Positions 2,173 to 19,893 of a stretch of DNA of 52,441 bases are shown in pieces; position 1 is the stretch's first letter; every line of letters starts with the position of its first letter. A program made the translations under genes and the position numbers. Below the pieces are notes generated by a model. It was not told the origin of the DNA and made no database searches. It saw only the letters and a list, made by a program, of their open reading frames with translations. This stretch comes from a bacterium (lineage in GTDB: Bacteria; Armatimonadota; Zipacnadia; Zipacnadales; UBA11051). The stretch is taken from NCBI GenBank assembly GCA_021372615.1, contig JAJFUB010000070.1, positions 1-52,441 of the forward strand, written 5' to 3'.

Positions 2173-3240
<1,068 letters not shown>

Positions 3241-3282: not shown

Positions 3283-3951
3283 GTGAGCGTGGCCGAGGAA
3301 CACGTGATCACCGCACTGTCGCAGGGCCGCAGACGGGGGCGGGTCGCCGTCCTGGTGGATGGCGAGCCGGTGTTGGACTTGCCGAAGGCCTTTGCCGAAC
3401 AGGTGGGACTAGTCGTCGGGCGTAGCCTCTCGCCCGCAACGCAAGATGAGATCCGCCGGCAGGCGGCACAGCATGAGGCGCGAGTGGTGGCGGTACGGAT
3501 GCTGGGTCGTCGCGCGCTGACGCAGGCCGAACTGCGTCGGCGTCTGTTCAGCCGTGGGCTGCCCGAGGAGGCGGTTGCGGCCACGGTAGACTGGCTGACG
3601 GACCTCGGGTACCTCAACGACGAGCAGTACGCCGAGCGGCGCTGGGAGACGCTCCGCCAGCGTCGGATGGGCACCCAGGGAATCGTGTACACGCTACGAC
3701 ACGAGGGGGTGCCCGGAGAAGTCGCCGACGAGATTCGGTCCCGACAGGATGACTCCGCGCAGGATGAAGCGCTCGCCAGCGAACTGGCCGAGCAGCGCAA
3801 TGCGGACCTGCAGCGGGTTCCCTGGCCTCAGCGCCGGCAGCGCCTCTACATGTTCCTGGCGCGCCGCGGCTTCGAGGCGCAGACCATCAATACTGTAGTC
3901 GGCAGACTGGAACCGGCGGATGACTCGTCCGAGGTGAGTGAAGAGGCATAA
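3283..3951 (+). CDS. recX: RecX regulator of RecA
   Basis: 222-residue RecX family protein. The characteristic tandem three-helix repeats are visible, for example the motif around [18 protein letters not shown] (about residues 85-105) and the following [15 protein letters not shown]. RecX binds RecA filaments and limits their growth or activity. It lies 42 bases downstream of recA, the usual arrangement, and overlaps the upstream part of the rny reading frame. Two in-frame GTG codons compete as start: 3283, which almost touches the GGGAGGGG ribosome-binding site, and 3289, whose spacing is better. I kept the longer form, and the true protein may be two residues shorter. Confidence 0.93.
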
Positions 3952-3967
3952 ACGCGGAGGTGGACGG

Positions 3968-5521
3968 ATGTCCGCTGTTAACATACCCTTGATTGTAGTG
4001 ACCGCAGTTAGCATCGCTGCCGCAGTAGTCGCCTGGTGGTACTATGGCGCGCGCTCAGCCCAAGCGACGGGGGATCTTCAGGGCAAGATTGACGACGCCG
4101 AGAAGCTCCGTGCCCAGTTGCAGAAGACCATTGAGGCCGAACGTCGGGAAGCGCAGCTAGCCGCTAAGGAAGAGATGATCCGCCTCAAGGCGGAAGTGGA
4201 GAAAGACAACAAGTCGGCGCGCGTCGAGATTGACCGCGCCAAGAAGCGCCTGGAAGAACGCGAAGACGCTGTCGAGCGCAAGAAACAGGACCTGGACAAG
4301 CACGCTCAGAAGCTCGAAGACCGCGAGCGCGGCCTGGAAGCCAAAGAGCAAGAAGCCCTCGACCTCATCAAGGAGCGCCGCCGGGCCCTGGAGCAGGTCG
4401 CGCACCTGACCACCCAGGAAGCCAAGGATGCCCTGCTGCACGAAGTGGAGCAGGAGATCGCCGACGAGACGACCGTCATCATCGGCCGCGCCGAGCGCGA
4501 GGCCCGCGAAGAGGGCCGCCGTAAGGCCTCCTGGATCATCGGCCAGGCCATCCAGCGCTGTGCCGTCGAGCAGACCACGGAGACCACCGTCTCGGTCGTG
4601 CCGCTGCCCAGCGATGAGATGAAGGGCCGCATCATCGGCCGCGAAGGCCGCAACATCCGCGCCTTCGAGCAACTGACGGGCATTGACCTCATCGTGGACG
4701 ATACCCCCGAGGCCGTCGTGCTCTCGGGCTTCGACCCTGTGCGGCGCGAGACGGCCCGCGTGGCCCTCGAGAGCCTGCTCACCGACGGCCGCATCCACCC
4801 GGGCCGCATCGAGGAGACGGTCGAGAAGGCCAAGGAGAACGTCGAGGAGCGCATTAAGGAAGCCGCCGAGAAGGCCTGTTTTGAGACCGGCGTCTCGGGG
4901 CTGCACCCGGAGATCATGCGCCTCATCGGCCGTCTGCATTTCCGCACCAGCTACGGACAGAACGTGCTCAACCACTCCATCGAGGTGTCCCACCTGGCCG
5001 GCGCCATGGCCGGCGAGTTGGGCGGCCGCGTCGGCATCGCCCGACGCGCGGGCCTGCTGCATGACCTGGGCAAGGCCGTGGACTTCGAGCGCGACGGCTC
5101 ACACGCGCAGATCGGCGCCGACATCGCCAGCAACCGCGGGGAGCATGGCGTGGTCGTGGAGTCGATCCTGGCCCATCACGAGGAAGTGGAGATCAAGTCC
5201 CTGGAGGCGGCGCTGGTGCAGGCCGCCGACGCCATCTCGGCCTCCCGTCCCGGCGCCCGCCGCGAGACGCTGGAGAAGTACCTCAAGCGCCTCGAAGAGC
5301 TGGAGACCATCGCCCACAGCTTCGACGGCGTGGACAAGGTCTATGCCATCCAGGCCGGCCGCGAGGTGCGGGTCATCGTCAAGCCGGACAAGATTGACGA
5401 CCTGTCCGCCCACAAGATGGCCAAGGGCATGGTGGACCGCATCGAGAGCGAGATGGACTACCCCGGACAGATCCGGGTCACGGTCATCCGCGAGACGCGG
5501 GCCGTGGAGTACGCCAAGTAA
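3968..5521 (+). CDS. rny: Ribonuclease Y
   Basis: 517-residue RNase Y, the membrane-anchored endoribonuclease that starts mRNA decay in Firmicutes-like bacteria; B. subtilis RNase Y is about 520 residues. Domains in order: one N-terminal membrane helix ([18 protein letters not shown]), a long charged coiled coil to about residue 200, a KH domain with [10 protein letters not shown] (about residue 218), and an HD domain with metal-binding HDLGKA (about residue 365) and ILAHHEE. The ATG at 3968 was chosen because GCGGAGGTGG precedes it and the membrane helix follows directly. An upstream start at 3938 would overlap recX and add a basic leader. It is followed by a strong palindrome before ymdB. 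Confidence 0.96.
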
Positions 5522-5572
5522 GACAACCGGGTCGTGCTGAGGGGAGTCGGCATGGCTCCCGGTAAGGAGCGT

Positions 5573-5598
5573 CCGGGCCCGCCGCTTGGCGGGCCCGG
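5573..5598 (+). repeat. Perfect 11-bp hairpin between rny and ymdB
   Basis: CCGGGCCCGCC, a four-base loop GCTT, then GGCGGGCCCGG give a perfect stem. No U-rich tail follows, so it is not a standard intrinsic terminator. It may stabilise the upstream 3' end or mark an RNA-processing boundary, which would be apt next to an RNase gene. It stops 33 bases before the ymdB start. Confidence 0.7.
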
Positions 5599-5630
5599 TG
5601 GTTAGCGGAGATGGTCTGCGGAGGTGCGAT

Positions 5631-6440
5631 GTGAAGATCTGCTTCGTCGGTGACATCGTCGGCCGGCCCGGGCGGCGGGCTCTGGTCCTCGCCCTGCCAC
5701 AGATCGTGGACAAGCACGGCTGCGAGTTCGTCATCGCCAACGGCGAGAACGCCGCCGCGGGCTTCGGCATCAGCCGCAAGGTGGCCGACGAGATGTTCGC
5801 CGCCGGGGTGGATGTGCTTACCAGCGGCAACCACATCTGGGCGGATAAGGAGGCCCCGCAGCTCCTGGCCGAGACCGACCGCATCCTGCGCCCGGCCAAC
5901 TTCCCCGCCGAGAACCCCGGCTATGGCAGCGGCGTCTACGAGACTCACAACGGCCACACTGTGGCCGTCATCAACCTGATCGGCCGCATCTTCATGGACC
6001 CGGCCGACAGCCCCTTCGTGCGCGGTGATGAGGAACTCGCGAAGGTCTCCAGCGCCGACGCCATCATCATGGACGTCCATGCCGAGGCGACCTCGGAGAA
6101 GATGGCCCTGGCCCACTACTTCGACGGTCGCGCGTCGGCGGTCATCGGCACCCACACCCATGTCATGACCGCCGATGAGCAGATTCTGCCCGGTGGCACG
6201 GCCTACATCACCGACTGCGGGATGACCGGCCCGCCCAACACGATCATCGGCATCGAGAAGGACCTGGCGCTGCGCCGGTTCTTGACCGGCCGGCCCGTCC
6301 GCTTCGAGGTGCCCAAGACGGGCCCGGCGATACTGTCGGCGGTAGTAGTGGACGTATCTCTTGACAACAAAGCGGCTCTCGATATACAAAGGATTTCCCT
6401 GCACATAACGGAGAGGAACCCGGACCTGGTTGAGTTGTGA
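5631..6440 (+). CDS. ymdB: YmdB-type metallophosphoesterase (2',3'-cAMP phosphodiesterase family)
   Basis: 269-residue calcineurin-like phosphoesterase of the TIGR00282/YmdB family. Metal-binding segments visible: FVGDIVGRPGRR at the N-terminus, ANGENAAAG, SGNHIW and GTHTHVMTAD. B. subtilis YmdB hydrolyses 2',3'-cyclic AMP and affects RNA levels and the biofilm/motility switch, and Deinococcus DR1281 is a structural homologue. The rny-ymdB-spoVS order seen here is the classic Firmicutes order, which supports the assignment. The GTG at 5631 is preceded by GGAGGTGCGAT at good spacing and opens straight into the first metal motif, so the extra 15 codons upstream are not used. The exact substrate in this organism is unknown. 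Confidence 0.93.
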   Translation: MKICFVGDIVGRPGRRALVLALPQIVDKHGCEFVIANGENAAAGFGISRKVADEMFAAGVDVLTSGNHIWADKEAPQLLAETDRILRPANFPAENPGYGSGVYETHNGHTVAVINLIGRIFMDPADSPFVRGDEELAKVSSADAIIMDVHAEATSEKMALAHYFDGRASAVIGTHTHVMTADEQILPGGTAYITDCGMTGPPNTIIGIEKDLALRRFLTGRPVRFEVPKTGPAILSAVVVDVSLDNKAALDIQRISLHITERNPDLVEL

Positions 6441-6611
6441 CCATCGGCATATCTGAAGGGGCTTGAGCGTGGGGTTGGAGCGAAGCAGCCAGCGATTATC
6501 AAGCAACACTGTAACCAGTTCGCAGCAGAGCATCAGCATCGTAGCGGCACGGCCGCGTGGGGCGCACGCGGCCAGTGACGTCAGCATCGCAGCATGAAGG
6601 GGGCACCTTCG

Positions 6612-6872
6612 TTGAGTGTCTTGAAGGTCAAGTCAACGTCGGACCCAAACAAGGTCGCGGGGGCGCTGGCCGGCACGATCAGGGAAGTCGGCAAGGCGGA
6701 GATGCAGACGATTGGCGCGGGCGCGCTGAATCAGGCCATCAAGTCTCTGGCCATCGCCCGCGGCTTCCTGGCGCCTTCCGGCATTGATCTGGTGTGCTAT
6801 CCGGCCTTCGTGGACGTAGACATTGATGGCAGCGAGCGCACCGCGATCCGCCTCTTCATCGAGCCGCGTTAG
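6612..6872 (+). CDS. spoVS: Stage V sporulation protein S (SpoVS)
   Basis: 86-residue SpoVS, an Alba-like small protein. It is strongly conserved: SVLKVKSTSDPNKVAGALAG, then IGAGALNQAIKSLAIARGF and a C-terminal ERTAIRLFIEPR. In B. subtilis spoVS is needed for late spore coat and cortex development, but the gene is also found in non-sporulating phyla, so its presence does not show sporulation. The TTG at 6612 is preferred because AAGGGGG lies about eight bases upstream and the protein then aligns end to end with B. subtilis SpoVS. An ATG at 6594 would add six residues. About 170 bases separate it from ymdB, so it may have its own promoter, although I see none that is convincing. Confidence 0.95.
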   Translation: MSVLKVKSTSDPNKVAGALAGTIREVGKAEMQTIGAGALNQAIKSLAIARGFLAPSGIDLVCYPAFVDVDIDGSERTAIRLFIEPR

Positions 6873-6892
6873 GCGCTACACCAAACAGCTAG

Positions 6893-6921
6893 AGGCGCTG
6901 TCTGCACCGCAGGCAGCGCCT
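6893..6921 (+). terminator. Intrinsic terminator after spoVS
   Basis: AGGCGCTGTCTGC, loop ACC and GCAGGCAGCGCCT form a 13-bp stem with one G-T wobble, followed by CGTTCTGTGT. It sits 20 bases after the spoVS stop and before the convergent alpha-galactosidase gene, so it may serve both strands. Confidence 0.7.
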
Positions 6922-6961
6922 CGTTCTGTGTCCCGGTCCGGGCCGCACTGGGGCAGCCCCT

Positions 6962-8923
6962 CTACGACAGCCGGCGATACACCAGCACCCTCGTCCCCGG
7001 CTGCTCGCGGATCGTGACCCTCAGGCCGGCCGCCAGGTCAGCCCCGCTCCTCTCCCCCATCTCGCCGTCGTCCAAGTCCTCCAGCACATAGGTCGCCGCC
7101 TCATCCAGGCCGTGTAGCTGCGCCACGATTGCGGCCTGCGGGCTCTGGGGGCGACGGAAGGCGATGACACAGCCCTCCCCCAGATCGGGCCGGTCGAACT
7201 GCCACGCCGCCCACGCCTCGTTGTCCAGGCTGTAGCCCTGCAGCGGAGTGAAGTCGCCGTAGAAGTACGGGCGCAGCCGCTGCTGCTGTTGCATCATCTG
7301 CCGCAGCCAGTCCACCGGCGCGAAGTCCACCGCGTCGCGCTCGTAGATGTTGGTGGTGATGACCAACCCCGGGCTCAGGGCGCTGCGGAAGCCGTAGGCA
7401 TCGAAGCGCTCGCACACCCCGGCCGACAGCGGCACCCACAGCGACAGGCCGTGCGTCTGGCTCTGCAGCCCCACCGGGTCGTAGCCGGGGAAGCACTGGT
7501 AGTCGCTGCGCCACAGCGCAACGGAGCGCGAGATCATCTCCAGGTCAATCCGCCGCCCGCCGCTGGAGCAGTTGTCAATCATCAGGCCGGGGTGCCGTTC
7601 CAGCAGTTCGTCCCACATCGCGTACAGGCCCTCGATGTGGCGGATCTCACTCATGCCGATGCGGTCAGGCGCGTCCGCCGCCTCCCAGTAGGGGGCCGGA
7701 TCGGTGTTGAAGTCCTGCCGGTAGCACGTCACCTGCCCGTCGCTGATGAGCCCCGAGAGCAGGTCCGTCATGGCCTGCCGGGCCGCGGGGAGCCCCAGGT
7801 TGAACAGGAAGTTCGGCCCGATGGGCCCCAGCAGCCACTCGGGCTGCTCGCGGGTGAAGAAGGTGCCCTCAAAGACCCGCTCTGGCTCCACCCACAGCAC
7901 GAAGCCCAGGCCCATCTCGCGCAAGGCCTTGCCGACGGGGCCCAGCCCCTCGGGATACGGCCCCTTGTTGGGCCACCAGTTGCCCACGTGCCGTCCCCAC
8001 TCGCTGTTGAAGACCGTCGAGTCCTCGCGGAACCTCCCGTCGCCATACCAACCCGCGTCAATCCAGAAGTACTCCAGCGGCAGGTCACGCTCGCGCCACC
8101 AGCGGGCCTTGGCGACCTGCTGCGCTGCCGTGTTCTCGCCCCAGACGGCGTTGCACACGGGCGCCTGCAGCGGCTCGCCGTTCCTCTGCGGGGTGTAGTG
8201 GCGCAGGATCAGGCGCCGCAGCATGTTGTGCCCGTGCAGGCGCTCGCCCTGCCAGAACAGGAGCAGCATCCGCGGGGTACGGATGCTCTCGCCTGGCAGC
8301 AGCCGCAGGTGCGTCTTCTGCATTCCGGCGCGCAGGCGCATCCCCTCGGGCTGACGGGCGAACTCCGCCTGCCAGGAGCCAGTCCAGCCGATGGCGCCGA
8401 TGAGCCCATGGTCGCCCGACTCCAGGTTGAAGAAGGGCAGGCAGTGGTATGACGAACGCCCGAGAGAGGAGTGGATGGTCCGCGTCGGGTGGTTGTAGAA
8501 GGTGGCCTGCTGGGGGGCGAAGTCCTCGAGGTCGCAGTCGCTGCCCTTCGCCCAATGCAGCACCGTGTTCGGGCCGAGGTCGGTGAAGACGCAGTCGAGG
8601 GGCCGGATGTCACTGAGAACCGGGGTCGGCTCAGGGCCCACGTTGGTCAGGCGCACGACCCACTCCACGGCCGGCAGATCGTCGTAGCAGCGGGCTGAGA
8701 CCTGCACCTGCAGGCCGCCGGCGGGGTCGGTCCACACCACAGTACGGTCGTGTGAGCCATCGCCGGGGGCCTCGGACTGCTCCACCGACCACCGAGGGAG
8801 CAACTCGGCAAGCGGCTGGTCGCCGCACGTACAGGACAGCGGCGGCGGCGCGCCGGCGGCCATGGCGCCCTCGAACCAGGCGCGACATCGGGACATCTCG
8901 GCAGCGAGAGGCTGGCTGGACAT
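6962..8923 (-). CDS. GH36-family alpha-galactosidase
   Basis: 653-residue glycoside hydrolase of family GH36 (melibiase-like). An N-terminal beta-sandwich domain is followed by the TIM barrel: WIDAGWYGDGRF (about residue 288), VLWVEPERV (about 343), the nucleophile segment CYRQDFN with D404, then NCSSGGRRID, and W-R-S-D474 as the likely acid/base. The 70-residue gap between D404 and D474 equals that of characterised GH36 enzymes, which carry KWD and SD motifs at these places. It should release terminal alpha-galactose from oligosaccharides or polysaccharides. No signal peptide is seen, so it is probably cytoplasmic. It is the last gene of a minus-strand run of secreted proteins and starts 42 bases after the preceding gene. 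Substrate specificity is inferred only. Confidence 0.88.
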   Translation of the reverse strand: MSSQPLAAEMSRCRAWFEGAMAAGAPPPLSCTCGDQPLAELLPRWSVEQSEAPGDGSHDRTVVWTDPAGGLQVQVSARCYDDLPAVEWVVRLTNVGPEPTPVLSDIRPLDCVFTDLGPNTVLHWAKGSDCDLEDFAPQQATFYNHPTRTIHSSLGRSSYHCLPFFNLESGDHGLIGAIGWTGSWQAEFARQPEGMRLRAGMQKTHLRLLPGESIRTPRMLLLFWQGERLHGHNMLRRLILRHYTPQRNGEPLQAPVCNAVWGENTAAQQVAKARWWRERDLPLEYFWIDAGWYGDGRFREDSTVFNSEWGRHVGNWWPNKGPYPEGLGPVGKALREMGLGFVLWVEPERVFEGTFFTREQPEWLLGPIGPNFLFNLGLPAARQAMTDLLSGLISDGQVTCYRQDFNTDPAPYWEAADAPDRIGMSEIRHIEGLYAMWDELLERHPGLMIDNCSSGGRRIDLEMISRSVALWRSDYQCFPGYDPVGLQSQTHGLSLWVPLSAGVCERFDAYGFRSALSPGLVITTNIYERDAVDFAPVDWLRQMMQQQQRLRPYFYGDFTPLQGYSLDNEAWAAWQFDRPDLGEGCVIAFRRPQSPQAAIVAQLHGLDEAATYVLEDLDDGEMGERSGADLAAGLRVTIREQPGTRVLVYRRLS

Positions 8924-8965
8924 GTGGAGAGCTCCCCGGGCAGAGTGAAGCGCTTGAAGCGCGTG

Positions 8966-10261
8966 CTACGGAGCAACGGTGAACGGGATCAGACCGAGCG
9001 TCTGCTCGCCGGCTTTGAGCACCACGAACCACTGGCCGCGCGGGAACGCCTCGGTGTCGGTCGGGTAGAAGGTGACGACGAACTCGTCCTTCTCCCTGGC
9101 CTCCACCAACGTGCGCCGCTTGGTCTTGGCGTCGTGGTACAGGGTCACAAGCAGTTGCGCCTGCGGCGGCGTCTGCACGGCGCGCACGTACAGGTACACC
9201 GTGGAGCTGCCGGCGGGCATGACATCGCTCGGTTCCACGCCCCGGTTGTCCGCCGTGCGGCGGCTACCGACGATGGCTGTCAGCACCGGCGTCTCGAGCT
9301 TCCCCCCCTGGCCGGAGGGCGTGCCCTCGGGCACCTGTGGGCGGCCGCCGACGGTCGGGGGCATCGTCCCCGGCATCGTCCCGGGAGTGCCCGGCGTCCC
9401 CGTCGTGGGTGGCGGTGTCGTCGTGGTGCCCCCGGTGGGGCCGGGGGGCGGCGTGCCACCCGCCGTCGCGGTCCCGCCGCCCTGGTTCCCTGTCGTCGGA
9501 GGGGGTGTTGTGGTGCCCCCGGTGGGGCCGGGGGGCGTCGTGCCGCCCGCCGTCGTGGTCCCGCCGCCCTGATTGCCCGTCGGCGGCGGGGGCGTCGTGG
9601 TGCCCCCGGTGGGGCCGGGAGGCGTCGTGCCGCCCGCCGTCGTGGTCCCCCCGCCCTGGTTGCCCGTCGTCGGCGGGGGTGTGCCCCCGCCCCCATTGCC
9701 CGACCATGGCGGCGGGGCGGTCGCCCCCTTCTCCACGGCGAAGGGCGGCAGACGCAACGTCAGCGGCTGCGGGTTGGTGAGGCCCGCGCCCTCGCAGGCC
9801 AACTGCGGGCAGTTGAGCTCAATCCTGACGAAGCCCAGACCTTCGCCGCCGGTGCCGGTGACCGTGCCATTGCCGCGGAGGTTGCCGACCGCGCCGTCCG
9901 CACCCGTGAACGTCCCCGAGACGTCGGCTGTGCCCGTGATGGAGTCGGGCGCCCTGGCGTCGAAGCTGCCATTGACACGGACGGTGAGCTGGTACTTGCC
10001 GGCAGCCCGACCACCGGCGGCCAGTTGCGGGCCGGTCTGGTTGGTGGTCGGCAGACCGAGGGTGACGTCACCGGCGATGGCGCCGGCCGGAACGCAGTTG
10101 AGCGTGCCGGTCATCACGCGACCGTCGGCCTGCACATCGAGCTTGGCGGTGAAGGCCAGTGCGGCCGAGGCGGTCGCGAGCATCGCGGCCACCATCATGG
10201 CTGGCGCCGCCTGCCTCGCTATTGCTGCTGCTCGCCCATGAGCACCTTGAGTTCCGGACAT
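8966..10261 (-). CDS. Secreted protein with Gly/Thr/Pro repeat linker, unknown function
   Basis: 431-residue protein of unknown function. From the ATG at 10261 it opens with a basic stretch and a hydrophobic segment (APAMMVAAMLATASAALA) typical of a Sec signal peptide. A compact N-terminal domain of about 140 residues follows. Next comes a low-complexity linker made of three near-identical 29-30 residue units rich in Gly, Thr and Pro, and a C-terminal domain of about 120 residues with beta-strand character ending in GLIPFTVAP. The start at 10261 has AAGGTGG seven bases upstream and lies 43 bases inside the preceding gene, suggesting translational coupling. An ATG at 10198 is the alternative. 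It belongs to the HtrA/paralog block and is probably an extracytoplasmic partner of those proteins; this is inference from context. Confidence 0.75.
   Translation of the reverse strand: MSGTQGAHGRAAAIARQAAPAMMVAAMLATASAALAFTAKLDVQADGRVMTGTLNCVPAGAIAGDVTLGLPTTNQTGPQLAAGGRAAGKYQLTVRVNGSFDARAPDSITGTADVSGTFTGADGAVGNLRGNGTVTGTGGEGLGFVRIELNCPQLACEGAGLTNPQPLTLRLPPFAVEKGATAPPPWSGNGGGGTPPPTTGNQGGGTTTAGGTTPPGPTGGTTTPPPPTGNQGGGTTTAGGTTPPGPTGGTTTPPPTTGNQGGGTATAGGTPPPGPTGGTTTTPPPTTGTPGTPGTMPGTMPPTVGGRPQVPEGTPSGQGGKLETPVLTAIVGSRRTADNRGVEPSDVMPAGSSTVYLYVRAVQTPPQAQLLVTLYHDAKTKRRTLVEAREKDEFVVTFYPTDTEAFPRGQWFVVLKAGEQTLGLIPFTVAP
9404..9667 (-). repeat. Three tandem 87-90 bp coding repeats (Gly/Thr/Pro linker)
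   Basis: Three consecutive copies encode units that begin TGNQGGGTTTAGG and end in TGGTTTPPP(P/T). Copies one and two are 29 residues and copy three is 30, with only a few substitutions. The near identity at DNA level suggests recent expansion by slippage or unequal recombination, and copy number may vary between strains. Confidence 0.85.
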
Positions 10262-12480
10262 GTGAACACCACCTTGTCGTGGTCGTTCCACGAGAAGAAA
10301 TGTCTCCTGAGGCTCTCCGCCAGCATGTTGCTCATGTACGGGCTCTTGTCCCCGGGCGAGTTGACGAACACGTTCATCAGCTTGCCGGTCGCCGGGTCTA
10401 TGGAGATGCGGACGGAGTAGCGAGCGATCTGGCTCGGGTCGCTCCGCGGGCGCGGGACCATCACGAAGGTGTTGGCTTCCTTGCCGCCCACGGCGATGCG
10501 GGGTGCTTCCGGCGTGGCCCCGCGCTTGGTGTAGACGTACCAGCCCTGCATCTTCTCATACTGGCCATCGTCAATGAGCTTGTTAACGAAGTTGACGTAG
10601 GCTTCCTGGGCCTTCACCAGGTCGCCGCCCGGGTCGCGCATCGTCTTCTCAATGCCCGTGAGGGTCTTCGTGTAGTCAGGCCGGTCGGCCATGGTCTCCG
10701 AGACCGACCGGAAGGGCGTCCGATGCCCCGATTTGAGTTCGGTCAGGTGGGTCCAGATGTGGTAGCCCTTCTCGCCCAGGAAGAAGATGGGGTCGCCGAC
10801 GGTGTCGCCTTCGAGGTTGTAGTACCGCTCCGTCCCGTCGGCTGACTTGCGGATGGCCACCTGCCGGTTCTTGTACACCACGAAGGGAGCGTCCTTGGGC
10901 TTTCCCTTGAAGTCCCCGACGATGGCGTACTCGGCGTCGGCCACCTCGACCTTCTCGCCGCCGGCCAGTTGCTTCTGCTGTCGGCCGTTCAACTGGAATG
11001 ACTTGCCGCCGAACTTCTGGGACACCTCGGGCGGGATCGCCCCCTCATCCACGCCTGCCGCCGGCACCGCTCGGGCGGAGTTCGCCGAGAAGGTGCGGAT
11101 GCCCTGCAGTCCGAGATTGGCCACGGCGCACAGGTTGGCGACGTGCTGGTCCCAGGTCAGGGGGTTCGTGCCATCCGTACCCATGTGGTAGATGGCGTTG
11201 CCCTCGATGCAGGTGCACAGCACCGCGCTGATCCACTTGCCGACATAGGGGATGCAGGTGAGCGCGTTGAGCGCGACCTCGCCCAGGTCGTCGGAGGTGC
11301 AGGCCAAGTAGGCGGTGTACAGTAGCCCGCCGGTGGTGTATACGTCGCCGATGCGCAGGGCGGTGGAGACGACGAACCAGGCGTAGTCGTCGGTGATGGC
11401 CTCGGTCGTCTGCCAGTAGGGCATGACGAAGGTCGTGATGTCCGCGCCCTTGTACTGGGGCGGCGTCGGCACAGTGTCACTGATGGGGCCGAGCAGCGGG
11501 TATGGAGGTTGCTGCCACTGGATCTTGAAGGGGTTGGCGCCGCGCTGGACGATCCAGTCCGCCCACCACCCGAAAGCCTTCAGACGGTTCTTCTGGCCGT
11601 CGTTGAGGACCAGGCAGCGGTCAATGTGCGCCCGGATGAGGCCCTGGCACTCCAGCCAGACGCTGGCGGCCATGACGGAAGCCTGCTGGTACGAGAAGGG
11701 CCCAGTGGGCGGGGCGAGCGGGTCGAGCGAGGGGGCACTGGCCAGATCACGAGCCGCCTTCAGCTTGGCCCCCAGCAGGTCCAGGTACTTGTCAATCGCG
11801 GCGGGGTTGATCGGCGGGTCGGCGGGGAGCTTCTCCTCTGCCTGTGCGCCGTACACCCCCCGGGCGGCGAAGTCCTCGTGTACCCGCCGAGCCATGGCCT
11901 TGACCGCCGCCACGCCCTCGCTGATGTAGGCATCATCCTCAGCCTTGCCCAGCGGCAACCCCCGGCGCCATCCCACCTTGAGCTGCACGTTGCCGCACAG
12001 AATGCGGGCTTCCGGCTTGAACGTCATGCCGGCATAGCCGGCTCCCGCCGAGGTGGTCATGAACTGCTGGAGCTTCTGCTCCTTTTCATTGTCACGCTTG
12101 AGGTACTCGTCGAAGTTGCTCTTGGACGCCTCGGGGCTGAGGAAGATGGTAGTGACGACCGACCACCCGACCTTGCCCTCTGGGGTGTTGAGGGTGTCGT
12201 CACTGTAGACCCACCATTCAGGCTGGTTGTGCCATACGTCACCGATGGTGACGCCGTAGTTGGCCATCCACTCCGGCACCCCCACACTGAACCCCATCTC
12301 CCGCAGGATCGTCCGGGCCTTATCGGCCTGCTGCCTGGCGTCGTCCTTGCTGATCGTCGCGGGGTCGTCCACGGCCGCGGCCGGGGTCAGGGCGAGGCAG
12401 AGCCCTGCCAGCAGTGCCACGGCAAGCTGGCAGAGACAGAACGGGGCACGACGCGGCTGGGCGAGGGCCGGGGTTCGCAT
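10219..12480 (-). CDS. Secreted protein of unknown function, tandem paralog B
   Basis: 753-residue protein with a clear Sec signal peptide (basic start, then LAVALLAGLCLALTPAAA). I recognise no family. It is collinear over its whole length with the upstream neighbour, sharing blocks such as LAPPTGPFSY, WLECQGLIRAHID, LKAFGWW, GGKSFQL, GDPIFFLGE and KLIDDG-YEKMQG. Cysteines in CGN, CQG, ACTS, LCT and FTCP are shared and could form disulfides. A hydrophobic central stretch (about residues 370-420) contains LTCIPYVGKWISAVLC. The C-terminal part carries RISIDPATGKLMNVFV. The ATG at 12480 was chosen because a conserved 12-base leader element sits at the same distance in both paralogs; a GTG at 12513 would add 11 residues. 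It overlaps the next gene. Confidence 0.8.
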   Translation of the reverse strand: MRTPALAQPRRAPFCLCQLAVALLAGLCLALTPAAAVDDPATISKDDARQQADKARTILREMGFSVGVPEWMANYGVTIGDVWHNQPEWWVYSDDTLNTPEGKVGWSVVTTIFLSPEASKSNFDEYLKRDNEKEQKLQQFMTTSAGAGYAGMTFKPEARILCGNVQLKVGWRRGLPLGKAEDDAYISEGVAAVKAMARRVHEDFAARGVYGAQAEEKLPADPPINPAAIDKYLDLLGAKLKAARDLASAPSLDPLAPPTGPFSYQQASVMAASVWLECQGLIRAHIDRCLVLNDGQKNRLKAFGWWADWIVQRGANPFKIQWQQPPYPLLGPISDTVPTPPQYKGADITTFVMPYWQTTEAITDDYAWFVVSTALRIGDVYTTGGLLYTAYLACTSDDLGEVALNALTCIPYVGKWISAVLCTCIEGNAIYHMGTDGTNPLTWDQHVANLCAVANLGLQGIRTFSANSARAVPAAGVDEGAIPPEVSQKFGGKSFQLNGRQQKQLAGGEKVEVADAEYAIVGDFKGKPKDAPFVVYKNRQVAIRKSADGTERYYNLEGDTVGDPIFFLGEKGYHIWTHLTELKSGHRTPFRSVSETMADRPDYTKTLTGIEKTMRDPGGDLVKAQEAYVNFVNKLIDDGQYEKMQGWYVYTKRGATPEAPRIAVGGKEANTFVMVPRPRSDPSQIARYSVRISIDPATGKLMNVFVNSPGDKSPYMSNMLAESLRRHFFSWNDHDKVVFTCPELKVLMGEQQQ

Positions 12481-12498
12481 CTGTAGCACGCTCCCTGA

Positions 12499-12510
12499 CG
12501 GCGGAATGGG
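12499..12510 (-). promoter_or_regulatory. Leader element shared by the two paralogs (copy B)
   Basis: On the coding strand it reads CCCATTCCGCCG and lies 18 bases before the ATG at 12480. The same 12 bases occur at the identical distance before the other paralog. It is either a remnant of the gene duplication or a retained 5'-UTR signal; its function is unknown. Confidence 0.5.
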
Positions 12511-12621
12511 CACCTACACATGCGCAAATGGGAGGACGCGCCGCACAGCCCCGGGCCCCCCCCGAGAGCCGTCGGCGACCATCACAGCCTGCTTTGCCGG
12601 GCGTCGCGCCCGCACACACCG

Positions 12622-14841
12622 TCAGGGCGTCCCGAGAGCGCCCAGGAGGGCCTTGAGGTCCGGGCAGGTGAAGATCACCTTGTCGCAGTCGTTCCAGGCA
12701 TAGAAGTGCTTCTTGAGGCTCTCGGCTAGCATCTCGCTCATGAAGATCTCGGTCGGCTTCTTCGGCGTGATGACGAAGACATTCATGAGCTTCCCGGTCC
12801 CCGGGTCAATGGAGATGCGGATCGGGTAGTGCGTCACCTGGCCGGGGTCGGTCGTCGGGCGCGGCACCCGGATGAAGGTGTTCGCCTCTGCATTGCCCAC
12901 GGGGATGCGCGGCGAAGTCGGCGTGGCGCCCTGCTTGGTGTACTGGTAGAAGCCCTGCATCTTCTCGTATGAGCCATCGTCAATGAGCTTGTTGACGAAC
13001 CCGATATACGAGTCCTGCGCCGCCTTGAGGTTGCCCTGCGGGTCGCGGAAGGTCTTCTCGACGTCCTTGAGCGTACCCAGGTATTCGGGGCTCTCGTCCA
13101 TGACACCCTTGACCGAGGGGAAGCCGGTCTTGTGACCACTCTTGATCTCCGTCAGGTGCGACCAGACGTGGTAGCCCCGCTCACCCAGGAAGAAGATCGG
13201 GTCTCCCAGCGTGTCGCCGTTGAGGGCGAAGTAGCGCTCGTTGCCGTCCGTGTCCTTCAGGATGGCCACAGTGCGCTTCTCGTAGCCGACGAGCCCCTGG
13301 GCGGTCTTCCCCTGGTAGGGGCCGACCACGGCGTAGTCCGCGTCGGCCACCTCCACCTCGAGGCCCCCCGGCAGTTGCTTCTTCTGGCGGGCGCCCAACT
13401 GGAAGGACTTCCCGCCAAACCTCTGGGCGACCTCGGGCGGGATGTTGCCGTCGTCAATGCCGGCCGCCGGGTTGGCCCGCGTGGCGTTCGGCCGGAAGGT
13501 GCGGTAGGCCTGCAGGCCCGTGAGAGCCACCCCACAGATGTTCGCCGCGTGCTGGTCCCAGGTCAGCGGGTTCGTGCCGTCAGTAGCGAGGCGGTAGACG
13601 GCGTTTGCCTCCACGTACGTGCACAGCGCGGCGCCGATCCACTTGCCGATGTGGGGGATGGAGGTGAGCCCTGCCATCGCCACCTCAGCGAGGCTGTTGG
13701 AGGTACACGCGAGGTAGGCGGTGTATAGCAGGCCACCGGTGTAGTAGATGTCGCCAAAGCGGAGGGCGGTGGAGGCGGTAGCCCAGGCGTAGTCGTCGGT
13801 GATGGCCTCGGTGGTGCCCCAGTAGGGCATGACGAAGGTCGTGATGTCCTCGCCCTTGTACTGCGGCGGCGTCGGCACGGTCTGGGCGATGGGGCCGAAT
13901 AGCGGGTATGGGGGCTCAGTCCACTGGATGCGGAACGGGTGGGCCCCGCGCTGGACGATGAAGTCCACCCACCAGCCGAAGGCCTTCAGGCGCTGCTTCT
14001 GCGCCTCGGTTAGCAGCAGGCGCTTATCTATGTGCGCTCGAATGAGCCCCTGACACTCCAGCCAGACGGTCTGAGCCATCATGGCAGCCTGTTCGTACGA
14101 GAAGGGGCCGGTGGGGGGCGCGAGCGGGTCGAGGTTGGGGGCGCTGGCCAGCTCGCGTGAGGCCTTGAGCTTGGCGGCGAGGAGATCCAGGTAGGCGTCT
14201 ATGGCAGCCGACGGGATGGGCGGGTCGAGGTCACGCGCCGGCCCCGCCACCGCCCGACAGAAGCCCTTGGCCACGAAAGCGTCGTGTACCCGCAGGGCCA
14301 TCTGCTTGACCGCGGTGAGGCCTTCCTCGCGAGTGGCCTCGATGGCGTTCACGCCCTCCGGGACGCCCTTCTTCCAGCGCAGGCGGAACTCGGTGTTGCC
14401 GCAGAGGAACCAGGCGTTGTGGAAGTACATGACGCCGGCGTGTCCCTCGCCGGCGCACGTGGTCATGAACCGCTGTACGTCGTCCTTGCTGTCACTCACG
14501 GAGCGCTGGTAGCGGTCGCGTGCGTCCGCCGCCCGCAAGGATACCTGCACCACCACGTCCCACGCCACCTCGCCGACCTTCACGCCCGAGGCGAGGTCAC
14601 CGGGGCTGGTGGCGTACCAGCTCGGCATCTCGCGCTGTTGCCCGTTGACGGTGAGGGTGAACCTGGGGTACCACTGAGGCGGGCCCATGGGGAAGCCCAG
14701 GGGTTTGAGGATGTCGCAGGCCGCGACGACTTGCTGCCGGGCCTCGTCCTTGGTCAGATCGGCGGCGTCGGCCGGCGGCAGCCCACCCACAATGTACAGC
14801 ACCAGAGCCAAGACGAGTACGTTCGGACGATGGTCACACAT
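12622..14841 (-). CDS. Secreted protein of unknown function, tandem paralog A
   Basis: 739-residue paralog of the downstream gene, with its own signal peptide (VLVLALVLYIVGGLPPADA). The same block order is present: a small N-terminal domain starting LTKDEARQQ, FMTTCAGEGHAG, WKKGVPEG, LAPPTGPFSYEQA, ECQGLIRAHIDK, FVMPYWGTTEAITDDYAW, a hydrophobic centre with IPHIGKWIGAALC, NPLTWDQHAAN, FGGKSFQLGARQKK, and a C-terminal RISIDPGTGKLMNVFV with FTCPDLKALLG. It is presumably exported. I cannot assign a function. The centre (small hydrophobic helices, then a D-G-T-N-P-L-T-W-D-Q motif) faintly recalls linker domains of polymorphic toxins, but this is speculative. It starts 60 bases after the HtrA-like gene. 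The ATG at 14841 was preferred over a GTG at 14877. Confidence 0.8.
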   Translation of the reverse strand: MCDHRPNVLVLALVLYIVGGLPPADAADLTKDEARQQVVAACDILKPLGFPMGPPQWYPRFTLTVNGQQREMPSWYATSPGDLASGVKVGEVAWDVVVQVSLRAADARDRYQRSVSDSKDDVQRFMTTCAGEGHAGVMYFHNAWFLCGNTEFRLRWKKGVPEGVNAIEATREEGLTAVKQMALRVHDAFVAKGFCRAVAGPARDLDPPIPSAAIDAYLDLLAAKLKASRELASAPNLDPLAPPTGPFSYEQAAMMAQTVWLECQGLIRAHIDKRLLLTEAQKQRLKAFGWWVDFIVQRGAHPFRIQWTEPPYPLFGPIAQTVPTPPQYKGEDITTFVMPYWGTTEAITDDYAWATASTALRFGDIYYTGGLLYTAYLACTSNSLAEVAMAGLTSIPHIGKWIGAALCTYVEANAVYRLATDGTNPLTWDQHAANICGVALTGLQAYRTFRPNATRANPAAGIDDGNIPPEVAQRFGGKSFQLGARQKKQLPGGLEVEVADADYAVVGPYQGKTAQGLVGYEKRTVAILKDTDGNERYFALNGDTLGDPIFFLGERGYHVWSHLTEIKSGHKTGFPSVKGVMDESPEYLGTLKDVEKTFRDPQGNLKAAQDSYIGFVNKLIDDGSYEKMQGFYQYTKQGATPTSPRIPVGNAEANTFIRVPRPTTDPGQVTHYPIRISIDPGTGKLMNVFVITPKKPTEIFMSEMLAESLKKHFYAWNDCDKVIFTCPDLKALLGALGTP

Positions 14842-14859
14842 TCGCGATACACCCCCAGG

Positions 14860-14871
14860 CGGCGGAATGGG
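14860..14871 (-). promoter_or_regulatory. Leader element shared by the two paralogs (copy A)
   Basis: CCCATTCCGCCG on the coding strand, 18 bases before the ATG at 14841, matching the copy before paralog B in both sequence and spacing. The flanking bases differ, which argues that this short stretch has been kept. Confidence 0.5.
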
Positions 14872-14900
14872 TACCACACTGGCGAAGCGCGGGATACCGC

Positions 14901-16037
14901 CTAGCCGCCCCTGAACCCCGGGTGGCGGCCGGCAACCATCGGGACCTGCACTTGCTGAGCGTCGCGCTGGATGCTCAGGGTGATCGTCTCGCCGATCTTG
15001 CGCTTGAGGATCTCGTCGCGCAACTGGTCCGGGCCCTGCACCTTGGCGCCGTTGACGGCCAGCACGACGTCACGGGGGCGCACCCCGGCGCGAAAGGCCG
15101 GGCTGTTGCGGTCCAGGCCCGCCACCAGCACGCCCGCGGGCGTGGACAGCCCGAAGTACTGCGCCAGGCCCGGACTGTTGGCGATCATGCCCTCTTCTTC
15201 CAGGCCGATGTAGGGCCCTCCGTACGTCAGGTAGTACAGCACACGCTTGGCGGAGTTGATCGGGATGGCGAAGCCGATGCCGACGGTGGCGCCGGTCGGG
15301 GAGAAGATCATGTAGTTGATGCCCACGACCTGGCCCGCCAGGTTGATGAGTGGCCCGCCGCTGTTGCCCGTGTTGATGGCCGCGTCGGTCTGGATGACGT
15401 TCTGGTAGCGGTCGCGGGATACCGAGCGGTAGCCCATGGCGCTGACGACGCCCACGGTCACCGTGTGCTCGTAGTCATACGGGTTGCCGATGGCGATGGC
15501 CCATTCGCCGACCTGAAGCTTGTCGCTGTCGCCCAGCGTGGCGCTGCGCAGGTCGCTCGGGGGATTGACCAGCTCGATGACGGCGATGTCCGAGACGTCG
15601 CTGGCGCCAGCCAGGCGGCCCTGCATCTCGCGGCCGTCGGTGAGCTTGACGACCAACTTGTCGGCGCCGCCGGCGACGTGGTTGTTGGTGAGCACCAACT
15701 GCCGCCCCCCGTGGTTGAAGACGAAGCCGGAGCCGATGGCGACCTGCTCCTGGGGCTGGCCGCCAAAGAGGTAGTGCATGGGGTCCATCGGCGCGGCCTG
15801 GGCGGCAATGACCTTCACGACCGAAGGACCGGCCGTCTTGACCGCGCGCACGATGGCGCTACTCTCGCTCTGGACTTCGAGCTTCGAGGTGGGACCGGAG
15901 GCAGGCAGCGGCTCAGTGACCGTCACGCGCGGCGCCGCGCGCCGGCTGACGAGATACCCCCCCAGGCCGCCGCCGATCAGCCCGAATACCAGGGCAATCA
16001 GGACGACGCACCCCACACCCGCACCTCGCCTGTCCAT
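14901..16037 (-). CDS. HtrA/DegP-like trypsin-family serine protease with PDZ domain
   Basis: 378-residue membrane-anchored HtrA-type protease. An N-terminal transmembrane helix (VVLIALVFGLIGGGLGGYLV) is followed by a chymotrypsin-fold domain with the full catalytic triad: H120 in LTNNHVAG, D150 in SDVSDIAV and S226 in NTGNSGGPL. A single PDZ domain follows (about residues 265-365) with GVLVAGLDRNSPAFRAGVRP. Such proteins degrade or refold misfolded envelope proteins. It heads the run encoding two large secreted paralogs and a repeat-linker protein, so it may process or quality-control them (inference). The ATG at 16037 has GAGGTGG upstream; an upstream start at 16058 lacks support. Confidence 0.93.
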   Translation of the reverse strand: MDRRGAGVGCVVLIALVFGLIGGGLGGYLVSRRAAPRVTVTEPLPASGPTSKLEVQSESSAIVRAVKTAGPSVVKVIAAQAAPMDPMHYLFGGQPQEQVAIGSGFVFNHGGRQLVLTNNHVAGGADKLVVKLTDGREMQGRLAGASDVSDIAVIELVNPPSDLRSATLGDSDKLQVGEWAIAIGNPYDYEHTVTVGVVSAMGYRSVSRDRYQNVIQTDAAINTGNSGGPLINLAGQVVGINYMIFSPTGATVGIGFAIPINSAKRVLYYLTYGGPYIGLEEEGMIANSPGLAQYFGLSTPAGVLVAGLDRNSPAFRAGVRPRDVVLAVNGAKVQGPDQLRDEILKRKIGETITLSIQRDAQQVQVPMVAGRHPGFRGG

Positions 16038-16051
16038 GAGCCACCTCGCTG

Positions 16052-16115
16052 AAGGCAAAGAGAGAAGACAGAAGAGAGAAGAGGGAAGACGGAACGGGAA
16101 AGGGACGACGGAGGC
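16052..16115. other. Polypurine tract between ribH and the HtrA-like gene
   Basis: About 64 bases on the plus strand are almost only A and G, with GAAGACAGAAGAGAGAAGAG as its core. It corresponds to a pyrimidine-rich leader just upstream of the minus-strand HtrA-like gene. It could favour unusual DNA structure or be simple-sequence drift. No gene is seen in 16038-16172. Confidence 0.6.
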
Positions 16116-16172
16116 CGTCAGCGCTCGTGCGCCACTGACCGGCCGGGCCGGTTGCCTGTCTCGTCAGTCCTC

Positions 16173-16640
16173 CTACGCGCCGAGGCGCTTGAGCAGGTTG
16201 GCCATCTCGATGGCGGCCAGGGCCGCTTCGGCGCCGCGGTTGGACAGCTTGACACCGGCGCGCTCGATGGCCTGCTCGATCGTGTCGGTCGTGATGACCC
16301 CGAAGATGATCGGCACGCCGGTCTGCAGCATCGTCTGGCCGATGCCCTTGGCCGACTCGCCGGCGACATAGTCAAAGTGGGGCGTGCCGCCGCGGATGAC
16401 CGCGCCCAGGGCAATGACGGCGTCGTACTTGCCGCTCTCAGCCAGCTTCTTGGCGACCAGGGGGATCTCAAAAGCCCCCGGGACCCAGAAGTTGTCGACG
16501 TTGTCGAGGCTGCCGCCATGGCGCGCGATGGCGTCATGCGCCCCGTCGAGCAAGCGGCGGGTGATGAGATCGTTGAAGCGGCTGATGACGATGCCGAACT
16601 TCAGTCCGGCAGCTTCGAGTGTGCCCTCGTAGTTGCTCAT
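16173..16640 (-). CDS. ribH: 6,7-dimethyl-8-ribityllumazine synthase
   Basis: 155-residue RibH, which condenses 3,4-dihydroxy-2-butanone 4-phosphate with 5-amino-6-ribitylaminouracil in the penultimate step of riboflavin synthesis. Conserved segments: [37 protein letters not shown] and [11 protein letters not shown]. It contains the catalytic His in the HFD motif. The length is normal for a capsid-forming lumazine synthase. The ATG has GGAAGGA upstream. It is the last gene of the rib run and lies 84 bases after ribBA. Confidence 0.97.
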
Positions 16641-16724
16641 GTCGTGATGTCCTTCCCCGTTGGGCTCATGCGGGCGCCACTGCCCCGCCGTCCGCCTCAG
16701 GATGTACGTGCCGTGCCGGTCCGT

Positions 16725-17981
16725 CTACGCCCCAGCCTTCCCCGCCTCACCGTTCCCCGTTTCCGCCTCTCCCGTTCCCGCCGTCTCCGTCAACAGGTGC
16801 CCCATCTTGTCCCGCTTGGTCAGCAAGTACCGCAGGTTGTACTCATTGCTCGGGCATTCCAGCGGCACGCGCTCGACGACCTCCAGCCCGTAGCCCGCCA
16901 TGGCGGCGTACTTCTTGGGGTTGTTGGTCATCAGGCGCATCTTCGTGAGGCCCAGGTCGGCCAGCACCTGCGCCCCCAGGCCGTAGTCCCGCAGGTCCGG
17001 CGGGAAGCCGAGGGCCTCGTTGGCCTCGACCGTATCCAGCCCCTCCTCCTGCAGGTGGTAGGCCCGTATCTTGTTCGCCAGACCGATGCCCCGTCCCTCG
17101 TGGCTGGGGATGTAGACGACGACTCCACAGCCCGCTTCGGCGATCATCGTCAGCGCCACCGAGAGCTGCCAGCCGCAATCGCACTTGCGCGAGCCCAGGA
17201 TGTCTCCGGTCACACAGCCGGAGTGGACGCGCACCAGCGGAGCCTCGCACGTCGCCGGGTCGCCCTTGACGATCGCCACATAGTCGGCGCCGTCCAGGAC
17301 GCTGGTGTAGATGATGATGTCGAAATCGCCGAAAACGGTGGGCAGGAAGGCCTGTGCCTGGCGTTCCACGAGGCGCTCGCCGCGGCGCCGCACGCGGATG
17401 ACGTCGGCGATGGAGACCATCGGCAGGTCGTGGCGGTCGGCGAACTCGCGCAGCTCCGCCAGGTGGGCCGGCTCGCCGGTGTCAGTCAGGACGCGGCAGG
17501 TTACCCCCGCGGGATACAGGCCGGCCAGCCGCGTGAGGTCCACGGCGGCCTCGGTATGCGCGGCCCGCACAAGCGTGCCGCCCGGCGCCGCCCGGATGGG
17601 CAACACATGGCCCGGCCGCAGCAGGTCGCGCGGGGTCGTCTCCTCGGCGACCAGGGCGCGGATGGTCGTGGCCTTGCCGGCCGCGCTGTCATCGCCCCCC
17701 GCGCGGGCGTCCACCGACACGGCGAAGGCGGCGCGCTCACCGTCGTCGTCCCAACTGTCGGAGACCATCGGCGGCAGGTCAAGCTCCGTCAGGCGCTCGG
17801 CCGTCAGCGCCACGGCCATCGTGCCGCGCGCCTGGAGCATCATGAAGTTGAGCTGCTCGGCCGAAGCGGCCCCGGCGGAGAGCAGCAGATCACCGGTCGT
17901 GTCGGGCTCGTCGTCGTCTATGACGATGACGAACCCGCCGTCGCGGAGCGTGCTCAGGATGTGGTCGAGATCGGTAGTCAT
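16725..17981 (-). CDS. ribBA: RibBA-type protein: GTP cyclohydrolase II with degenerate DHBP synthase domain
   Basis: 418-residue two-domain protein. The C-terminal GTP cyclohydrolase II half looks intact: zinc cysteines in HSGCVTGDILGSRKCDCGWQL, EGRGIGL, and DLRDYGLGAQ then TNNPKK. It should open GTP for riboflavin synthesis. The N-terminal half has the DHBP synthase fold but lacks key residues: the usual D-R-E-N-E-G-D loop is E-P-D-T-T-G-D (residues 25-31), and the C-E of the normal G-V-I-C-E motif is C-R163. HTEAAVDL is kept. The DHBP synthase activity is therefore doubtful, and another source of ribose-5-phosphate-derived DHBP would be needed. The gene lies between ribE and ribH. Confidence 0.9.
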   Translation of the reverse strand: MTTDLDHILSTLRDGGFVIVIDDDEPDTTGDLLLSAGAASAEQLNFMMLQARGTMAVALTAERLTELDLPPMVSDSWDDDGERAAFAVSVDARAGGDDSAAGKATTIRALVAEETTPRDLLRPGHVLPIRAAPGGTLVRAAHTEAAVDLTRLAGLYPAGVTCRVLTDTGEPAHLAELREFADRHDLPMVSIADVIRVRRRGERLVERQAQAFLPTVFGDFDIIIYTSVLDGADYVAIVKGDPATCEAPLVRVHSGCVTGDILGSRKCDCGWQLSVALTMIAEAGCGVVVYIPSHEGRGIGLANKIRAYHLQEEGLDTVEANEALGFPPDLRDYGLGAQVLADLGLTKMRLMTNNPKKYAAMAGYGLEVVERVPLECPSNEYNLRYLLTKRDKMGHLLTETAGTGEAETGNGEAGKAGA

Positions 17982-18006
17982 GGTGATAGAAGGAAACGAA
18001 TCAACC

Positions 18007-18170
18007 GCGTCCCACCCCCTACCCCCTCCCTAAGGGGGGGGGCCATGTACGCCCGGTTGGCGGATGCCCCGGCCCCGTCGTCGCAGCGGATGCCCCGATC
18101 GCGTCGTCGAAACCAGTAGCCAGTCTGACTGATCCCCCTCCCTTCAGGGAGGGGGTAGGGGGTGGGACGC
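18007..18170. repeat. Perfect 25-bp inverted repeat with 114-base centre, inside rib operon
   Basis: The arms at 18007-18031 and 18146-18170 are exact reverse complements, beginning GCGTCCCACCCCCTACCCCC on the plus strand. Each arm also continues into a smaller local hairpin (CCCTCCC with GGGAGGG or G-runs). The element fills almost the whole ribBA-ribE spacer and holds no gene. It resembles a miniature mobile element or a pair of dispersed palindromes in opposite orientation. Confidence 0.85.
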
Positions 18171-18172
18171 CG

Positions 18173-18805
18173 TCAGAACCCGTGTTGCCGCAGGAACTCC
18201 TCGGTAATGCCCTGGCTCTCCAAGCCCATGGCCCGGCGCACGTACTTGGCGAGGATATCTACCTCGATGTTCACGCGCGCACCCGGCGCCATGTCCGCCA
18301 ATGTCGTGTGGGCGAGCGTGTGCGGGATGATCGCCACACTGAAGGTGCTGCCCGTGATCCGCGTCACGGTGAGGCTGACGCCGTCCACGGCCACGCTGCC
18401 CTTCTCGGCCACATACAGCGCCTGGTCGTCGGGCAGGTCGAAGCTGAACTCCGTCGTCTCGCCAACGGGCGTGCGTCCGGTGCAGACACCGACGCAGTCC
18501 ACGTGTCCCTGCACGACATGACCGCCCAGGCGGGCGCCGGCCTGCAGAGCCTGCTCGAGGTTCACCCGTTGCCCGCGCTCCCAGTCCCCGGCCGTCGTGC
18601 GGGAGACTGTCTCGGCCCCGGCGTGGCAGGCGAAGGTCCCACTGCCGAGGGTGACGACGGTCAGGCAGGTGCCGCTGACAGCGATGCTGTCGCCGATCTG
18701 AGCGGCGGCGGCAATCCCCGGGGCGCGCACGGTCACATCACGCCCGGTGGCGGTGGCGCGGACGCTCTCGATCTCGCCGACTTCCTCGATCAGCCCGGTG
18801 AACAT
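18173..18805 (-). CDS. ribE: Riboflavin synthase alpha chain
   Basis: 210-residue riboflavin synthase, which dismutates two 6,7-dimethyl-8-ribityllumazine molecules into riboflavin and the RibD product. It opens with MFTGLIEEVG, the family signature, and has two lumazine-binding barrels. The first has DSIAVSGTCLTV and the second GSVAVDGVSLTV; RLGGHVVQGHVD lies between them. The ATG overlaps the ribD stop by 16 bases, so the two are coupled. The stop lies two bases from the inverted-repeat element. Confidence 0.97.
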   Translation of the reverse strand: MFTGLIEEVGEIESVRATATGRDVTVRAPGIAAAAQIGDSIAVSGTCLTVVTLGSGTFACHAGAETVSRTTAGDWERGQRVNLEQALQAGARLGGHVVQGHVDCVGVCTGRTPVGETTEFSFDLPDDQALYVAEKGSVAVDGVSLTVTRITGSTFSVAIIPHTLAHTTLADMAPGARVNIEVDILAKYVRRAMGLESQGITEEFLRQHGF

Positions 18806-19893
18806 GGGTATGCCGTTACCAACAGGTCATTGCCGACACGCCGCGGCGTCCCCTGCCGCAGTTCCACTGCCAGGGCCTCGTCCATCCGCTCCAGGCCCAG
18901 CGGGCCAATCCCCGACAGGCCCTCGGCTCCGACGAGCTTCGGGGCGTAGAACAGTCGGTACTTGTCGGCGAGCCGGGCCTTGACCAGTCCTGCCGCCAGC
19001 TCGGGGCCGCCCTCGCACAGGATGCTCATCACGTCCCGCTGTCCCAGGTGTGCCATCAGGGCTGCCAGGCTTACGTGCTGCCCCGTGGCGGGCAGCTCGA
19101 TCACCTCGACCCCGGCCTCCCGCAGCGCCCGCACACGGCGCTCCGGCGCCCCTTCGGACACCGCAATGAGGCATCCGCCCGGCCCGGTCACTACCCGGGA
19201 GCGGGGTGGGGTCACGGCCCGGCTATCGGCGATCACCCGGAGCGGCTGGCGGCCATCGCGCGGGGCGGGGCGGACGGTCAACTGCGGATCGTCCGCCAGC
19301 ACGGTCCCGACGCCCACGAGCACGGCATCGCTCTCGTTCCGCCAGCCATGGACCAGCGCCCGGGACTGCTCGCCCGTGATCCAGCGCGAGTCGCCGCTCG
19401 CGGTCGCGACCTTGCCATCCAGCGTCAGGGCCAGCTTCACCGTCACGAACGGTCGGCCGGTCGTCTTGTGCTTCACGTACGGCTCGTAGTGCTCGGCGAT
19501 CCGCCCGCGGAGCAGCTCCTGCTCAACGACGAGGCCCGCCTGCCGCAGCATCTCCGCCCCGCCCCCTGCGCAGCGCGGGTCCGGGTCGGTCAAGCCGTAG
19601 ACCACCCGCCGGATGCCGGCGGCGATGATGGCGTCGGTACACGGCGGCGTGCGACCCTGGTGGCAGCACGGCTCCAGGGTGCAGTACAGCGTCGCCCCCC
19701 GCGCGCTCTCCCCCGCCTCGCCCAGGGCCAGCGGCTCGGCATGGGGCTCCCCGGCCCTCCGGTGCCAGCCGCGCCCCAGGAGGGTCCCGTCGGGGCCAAC
19801 AACGACAGCGCCAACCGGGGGGTTGGGGGAGGTGCGGCCCAGGCCCCGGCGTGCCAGCCGGCAGGCGCTACTCATCCAGCGGGAATCACTCAC
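18790..19893 (-). CDS. ribD: Bifunctional riboflavin deaminase/reductase
   Basis: 367-residue RibD. The N-terminal deaminase has the zinc site H-A-E (in EPHAEPLAL) and PCCHQGRTPPC, preceded by RRGLGRTSPNPPVGAVV. The C-terminal reductase has VKLALTLDGKVAT, SRWITG and VGVGTVLADDPQLTVR, then a NADPH-binding CEGGPELAAG. It converts the GTP cyclohydrolase II product to 5-amino-6-ribitylamino-uracil 5'-phosphate. The GTG start at 19893 overlaps the TGA of the upstream membrane-protein gene as GTGA, evidence of translational coupling and the reason for choosing this start. Confidence 0.96.
   Translation of the reverse strand: MSDSRWMSSACRLARRGLGRTSPNPPVGAVVVGPDGTLLGRGWHRRAGEPHAEPLALGEAGESARGATLYCTLEPCCHQGRTPPCTDAIIAAGIRRVVYGLTDPDPRCAGGGAEMLRQAGLVVEQELLRGRIAEHYEPYVKHKTTGRPFVTVKLALTLDGKVATASGDSRWITGEQSRALVHGWRNESDAVLVGVGTVLADDPQLTVRPAPRDGRQPLRVIADSRAVTPPRSRVVTGPGGCLIAVSEGAPERRVRALREAGVEVIELPATGQHVSLAALMAHLGQRDVMSILCEGGPELAAGLVKARLADKYRLFYAPKLVGAEGLSGIGPLGLERMDEALAVELRQGTPRRVGNDLLVTAYPCSPG

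Follow-up and report, generated by a model that had tools for sequence, protein, structure and literature searches.

Among described proteins, the HtrA/Do-family serine proteases (DegS/DegQ-like, MEROPS S1C) stand closest to the protease encoded at this locus, which shares with them a trypsin-like domain with its triad, one PDZ domain and an N-terminal membrane anchor, but which scores below the NCBIfam Do-family cut-off and, in this order of bacteria, follows ribH. The extracellular domains of the mycobacterial proteins PknH and TiME resemble, at borderline scores, the alpha/beta sandwich predicted for the N-terminal domain of ParA, the first of two large tandem paralogs, ParA and ParB. The paralogs differ from them in an identity of 11–13%, in the lack of a Pfam match and in the joining of the domain to about 540 unrelated residues. 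DcrB and PsbP, of the Mog1p/PsbP-like fold, also match the model of this domain, but only in partial alignments and with no sequence relationship detected. A further protein of the locus resembles the GH36 alpha-galactosidases through a Melibiase domain above the Pfam cut-off (2.3e-22, 79.9 bits against 27), although the scores of its GH36 N-terminal and C-terminal domains fall short of their cut-offs. The window, that is the whole stretch of DNA analysed, is an entire contig of 52,441 bases from a draft genome of 6.4 Mb (171 contigs, 96.7% complete).

Gene order and the extra block

The genes for HtrA, both paralogs and a protein with a repetitive linker (the linker protein) all lie on one strand, as the earlier note had claimed, namely the minus strand (Table 1). 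The spacers are 59 nt between htrA and the ParA gene, 141 nt between the paralog genes, and either 20 nt or an overlap between the ParB gene and the linker gene. A gap of just 42 nt separates the linker gene from the GH36 gene behind it, which on this spacing is counted in the same gene run. From the opposite side, spoVS and ymdB converge on the minus-strand run, and hairpin sites of the kind found between the GH36 and spoVS genes are no more frequent in the region than in shuffled sequences. In the gene list of the block no small gene is evident between those listed. A promoter search of 6500–16800, which is not informative for this phylum, returned no sigma-70-like site.

Table 1. Coordinates of the features of the locus within the window.
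Feature	Position	Strand	Basis or remark
ribD, ribE, ribBA, ribH	19893 down to 16173	minus	ribH by Pfam; ribD, ribE and ribBA named by sequence and order
HtrA/Do-family serine protease	14901–16037	minus	N-terminal membrane anchor, one PDZ domain; final gene of the rib block; Pfam and synteny
ParA, first orphan paralog	12622–14841	minus	739 aa from ATG at 14841; signal-like N-terminus, N-domain, helical centre, C-terminal half without relatives
ParA N-terminal domain	14251–14769	minus	only part of ParA with a relative outside its own genome (L009/L102, G003)
ParB, second orphan paralog	10219–12480	minus	about 753 aa from ATG at 12480; 60% identity to ParA
ParB N-terminal domain	11845–12366	minus	counterpart of the ParA N-domain
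Linker protein: N-domain, Thr/Gly/Pro linker, C-domain	8966 to 10198 or 10261	minus	
Linker protein C-terminal domain	8969–9313	minus	common at the ends of other proteins in the order
GH36 alpha-galactosidase-like enzyme	6962–8923	minus	Pfam Melibiase; within the extra block but separable
Extra block, 8.0 kb (8,028 bases)	6873–14900	strandless	by comparison with L047 of sister genus G258
Terminator-like 14-pair hairpin	6892–6922	strandless	where the GH36 and spoVS genes converge

The boundaries of the block become clear when the window is compared with its closest relative, a member of a sister genus (G258, locus L047). There the order is ribD-ribE-ribBA-ribH-htrA, followed after about 220 bp by spoVS and ymdB. 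The HtrA of the relative is 60% identical to that of the window and its gene ends near 10574. Facing it, spoVS (90% identical) has its end near 10797, and on the far side of spoVS the genes match those at 207–6440 of the window in order. From this synteny it follows that the window holds 8,028 extra bases, placed precisely in the gap between htrA and spoVS and containing both paralogs, the linker gene and the GH36 gene. With syntenic flanks on both sides, the contig is unlikely to be a contaminant or a chimera. The four genes are best read as a lineage-specific accessory block lying between two conserved gene blocks.

Since the paralogs are absent from all 290 other genomes of the phylum, a gain of the block in the lineage of the window appears favoured over a loss in the sister genus, though with codon usage native and no mobile element seen the two histories are not firmly separable. 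No integrase or insertion sequence was seen at the block, and a search of its surroundings for flanking repeats and mobile-element genes turned up only the paralog duplication and the repeats of the linker.

Several other genes of the window were noted in passing. A 725-residue protein at 20444–22621 carries a copper amine oxidase N-terminal domain and has a 43% identical relative placed equally by the rib block of the sister genus. A 1207-residue protein at 28937–32560 contains a Laminin_G_3 domain above the cut-off together with weak MG2 and beta-galactosidase trimerisation matches, and near it are encoded a polysaccharide pyruvyl transferase (32931–34193) and a DUF5693 protein (33998–36073). 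Two long candidate open frames (25106–27406 and 39648–41219) have no Pfam match.

HtrA beside the riboflavin genes

The identification of an HtrA-type protease with an intact triad is borne out by residues H127, D157 and S233, found in the motifs NNHV (at 125), SDIAV (at 156) and GNSGGPL (at 231), and by Pfam matches above the cut-offs to Trypsin_2 (3.3e-30) and to a single PDZ_2 domain (7e-13; residues 309–372, 49.1 bits against 27). Against the NCBIfam model degP_htrA_DO (TIGR02037) the protein reaches 298.9 bits, below the cut-off of 416.2, with 275 of the 434 model positions matched, and it is therefore called HtrA-like only and not a DegP-type Do protease.

HtrA is nearly universal among the genomes compared, with a match at E 1e-40 or better in 30 of the 31 (its own included) and at E below 1e-84 in 26. 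In all 15 loci compared from the order (L047–L061) its gene is the next one after ribH and reads in the same direction. The genes downstream of it vary between genera, and the paralogs are absent from every one of these ribH-htrA loci. The earlier note had placed HtrA in one system with the paralogs and the linker protein and had called for a survey of whether such genes travel together. They do not, given that the protease keeps its place beside ribH across the order in genomes that lack the paralogs, whilst the paralogs occur in a single genome of the 291 in the phylum, their own. HtrA is best read as a bystander, a housekeeping neighbour of the accessory block and not part of a shared system. 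As an observation in its own right, a membrane-anchored HtrA stands next after ribH across the order (14901–19893 in the window), a conserved riboflavin-HtrA linkage that has no obvious reason.

The orphan paralogs and the linker protein

ParA and ParB are 60% identical over 716 residues, and ParB is the sole other copy of ParA in the genome. They arose by tandem duplication, and the duplicated unit takes in 27 nt immediately before the ATG start codons (repeat family D7). Their codon usage and codon-position GC resemble those of neighbouring core genes, and dN is 0.34 against a dS of 0.72 (NG86). They are accordingly constrained coding genes of an old duplication. Several features described in the earlier note hold up, namely the signal-like N-terminal segments (judged by hydropathy alone), the cysteines in common, of which six lie outside the signal region, and the lack of any known family. 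The hydrophobic centre is present in both proteins but is mild, with a best 19-residue Kyte-Doolittle mean of 1.1 in ParA and 1.5 in ParB, so that this helical stretch, which carries an IPxxGKW motif and lies between the N- and C-terminal parts, is not clearly membrane-spanning.

At the level of sequence comparison ParA and ParB form an orphan family. Neither matches Pfam, NCBIfam or PHROGs at E values up to 1, and a search of the sequences of solved structures with ParA gave a chance match alone (E 2.1). No relative turned up in genome_contigs, which was scanned with short, exactly matching conserved peptides that would miss distant relatives, nor among the viral contigs, the plasmids and the phages. 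For the C-terminal half, nothing beyond chance was found in 41 genomes of the order. Weak phylum matches to the paralog profiles (L010–L017 and L064–L075) were set aside as chance, being short, stop-containing or, where inspected, clearly unrelated.

One further protein is found by the profile of the pair (E 0.0017; pairwise E 8e-6), a protein of 715 residues in a genome of another family (G003, L009). The match is limited to the N-terminal domain and the remainder of the protein is dissimilar. Invariant positions among the three domains include P-x-W, CGN and then a W. The next gene after that of this relative (L102:10092–12239) encodes a Pro/Thr-linker protein (12309–13970) whose N-terminus is signal-like and which has no homology to the linker protein of the window.

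The structure prediction that had been proposed for the paralogs gave a usable model of this domain but not of the rest. Modelled from two sequences, full-length ParA has a mean pLDDT of 41.9 and is unusable past the N-domain, and its helical matches (DnaK lid, CorA, Tom1 GAT) were discarded as generic bundles. Modelled alone from a three-sequence alignment, the N-domain gives an alpha/beta sandwich with a pLDDT of 76.5 and a pTM of 0.75. Its best fold matches are the extracellular domain of PknH (4esq) and the Rv0999 ortholog 4tmd, both at Z 8.2, followed by TiME (7.0–7.2), TM1622 and DcrB (6.8) and PsbP (4.3), although these scores are close to the level of 7–8 that models lacking any clear match often reach. 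The PknH/TiME alignments span 123–127 of 173 residues (123 for 4esq). Foldseek places TiME and 4tmd first to third at borderline values (E 0.03–0.06, best 0.027, above 0.001). Because mycobacterial extracellular domains top both lists, and because PknH and TiME were already among the matches of the full-length model, an envelope ligand-binding domain is the likeliest reading of the predicted structure, at borderline scores and with the proviso that likeness of fold does not establish function.

The linker protein has no match of meaningful score in Pfam, NCBIfam or PHROGs. The earlier note placed the start of its gene inside that of ParB. An ATG at 10261 would allow this, but an equally good one lies outside at 10198, 20 nt past the ParB stop and preceded by GAGGCAGGCGG. 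A Thr/Gly/Pro linker of about 138 residues, containing three 87-bp repeats, leads to a C-terminal domain of about 110–115 residues. Candidate relatives of the N-domain in six other genomes (E 0.003–0.01) were judged to be driven by composition, several of them in short or stop-containing frames. The C-domain recurs in the order, with no Pfam match where tested, at the C-terminus or within 8 residues of it in 14 further proteins from other genomes (L078–L091). These modular proteins share the domain with the linker protein, several of them behind similar Thr/Pro/Gly linkers, but differ in having various other N-terminal parts and in belonging to genomes without a ParA or ParB gene. As it sits on so many different proteins, the C-domain is a general module and not evidence of a special partnership, and in this respect the linker protein is not particular to the paralogs.

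Possible roles of the accessory block

The explanation preferred here, with moderate confidence, is that an accessory block, reading in the same sense as the housekeeping rib-htrA block upstream of it, encodes envelope proteins that are exported and probably bind ligands, with HtrA as a bystander. ParA, ParB and the linker protein would be exported by way of N-terminal signal peptides, as their hydropathy suggests. The PknH/TiME-like N-domain of the paralogs may then bind an extracytoplasmic ligand or a component of the envelope, as its predicted fold would allow, and the two copies may have diverged in what each binds. The linker protein could act as a partner by displaying or anchoring its own N-domain in the envelope. 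Transcription might run on from rib-htrA into the block or start at an unrecognised promoter, and HtrA, present anyway, would provide general envelope quality control only.

Other explanations have been weighed against this one. That HtrA matures or polices ParA and ParB in a dedicated extracytoplasmic system, in complex with the linker protein, would agree with the shared strand and short gaps, and a membrane-anchored HtrA would indeed meet exported paralogs. It is nevertheless quite unlikely, as the order keeps HtrA together with ribH where no paralog exists, the C-domain of the linker protein is a general module and the genes are found together in no second genome. The closeness of the GH36 gene within the same extra block would fit a role in carbohydrate use, in which ParA, ParB and the linker protein would capture a galactose-containing polymer extracellularly and GH36 would cleave the oligosaccharide after its import. 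The enzyme has no signal-like N-terminus, as expected of a cytoplasmic last step. However, no transporter or surface hydrolase lies within the block, none of the three other proteins matches a carbohydrate-binding family, and GH36 homologs (up to 74% identity) occur in 16 of 30 other relatives, all without the paralogs. This distribution agrees with the earlier suspicion that GH36 may be an unrelated rider; a functional link to the paralogs is possible but unsupported, and the carbohydrate reading is unlikely.

Tandem duplication, a restricted distribution and the hydrophobic helical stretch with its motif could also fit secreted effectors of interbacterial competition, the centre of which would insert into a membrane. 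Yet that stretch is just mildly hydrophobic, searches at E up to 1 in Pfam, NCBIfam and PHROGs matched no pre-toxin or toxin family, and the C-terminal halves are as conserved (63% identical) as the remainder and have not been exchanged, which leaves such a role highly improbable. A more ambitious version of the ligand-binding idea is that ParA and ParB are the first members of a new receptor family, large, exported and built of two parts. In these receptors a PknH-like ligand-binding domain would be joined to a core of helices and to a C-terminal part whose fold is new, and ParA and ParB would work as a pair with the linker protein as surface scaffold. The succession in G003 of an N-domain protein and an unrelated Pro/Thr-linker protein is a weak independent hint in this direction, and the receptor-scaffold reading is judged improbable.

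One part of the finding is ordinary, namely the end of a conserved operon with an accessory block behind it, whereas the other, the pair of orphan proteins, is unexplained. The analysis removes a tempting but unsupported link between the protease and that pair, and the case shows that a conserved operon end can mimic part of a system when one genome alone is read. The linkage of htrA to the rib genes across the order is a modest observation that can be tested separately. If the paralogs are real receptors, they would add a large exported family to a fold of which most known cases are extracellular domains of mycobacterial proteins.
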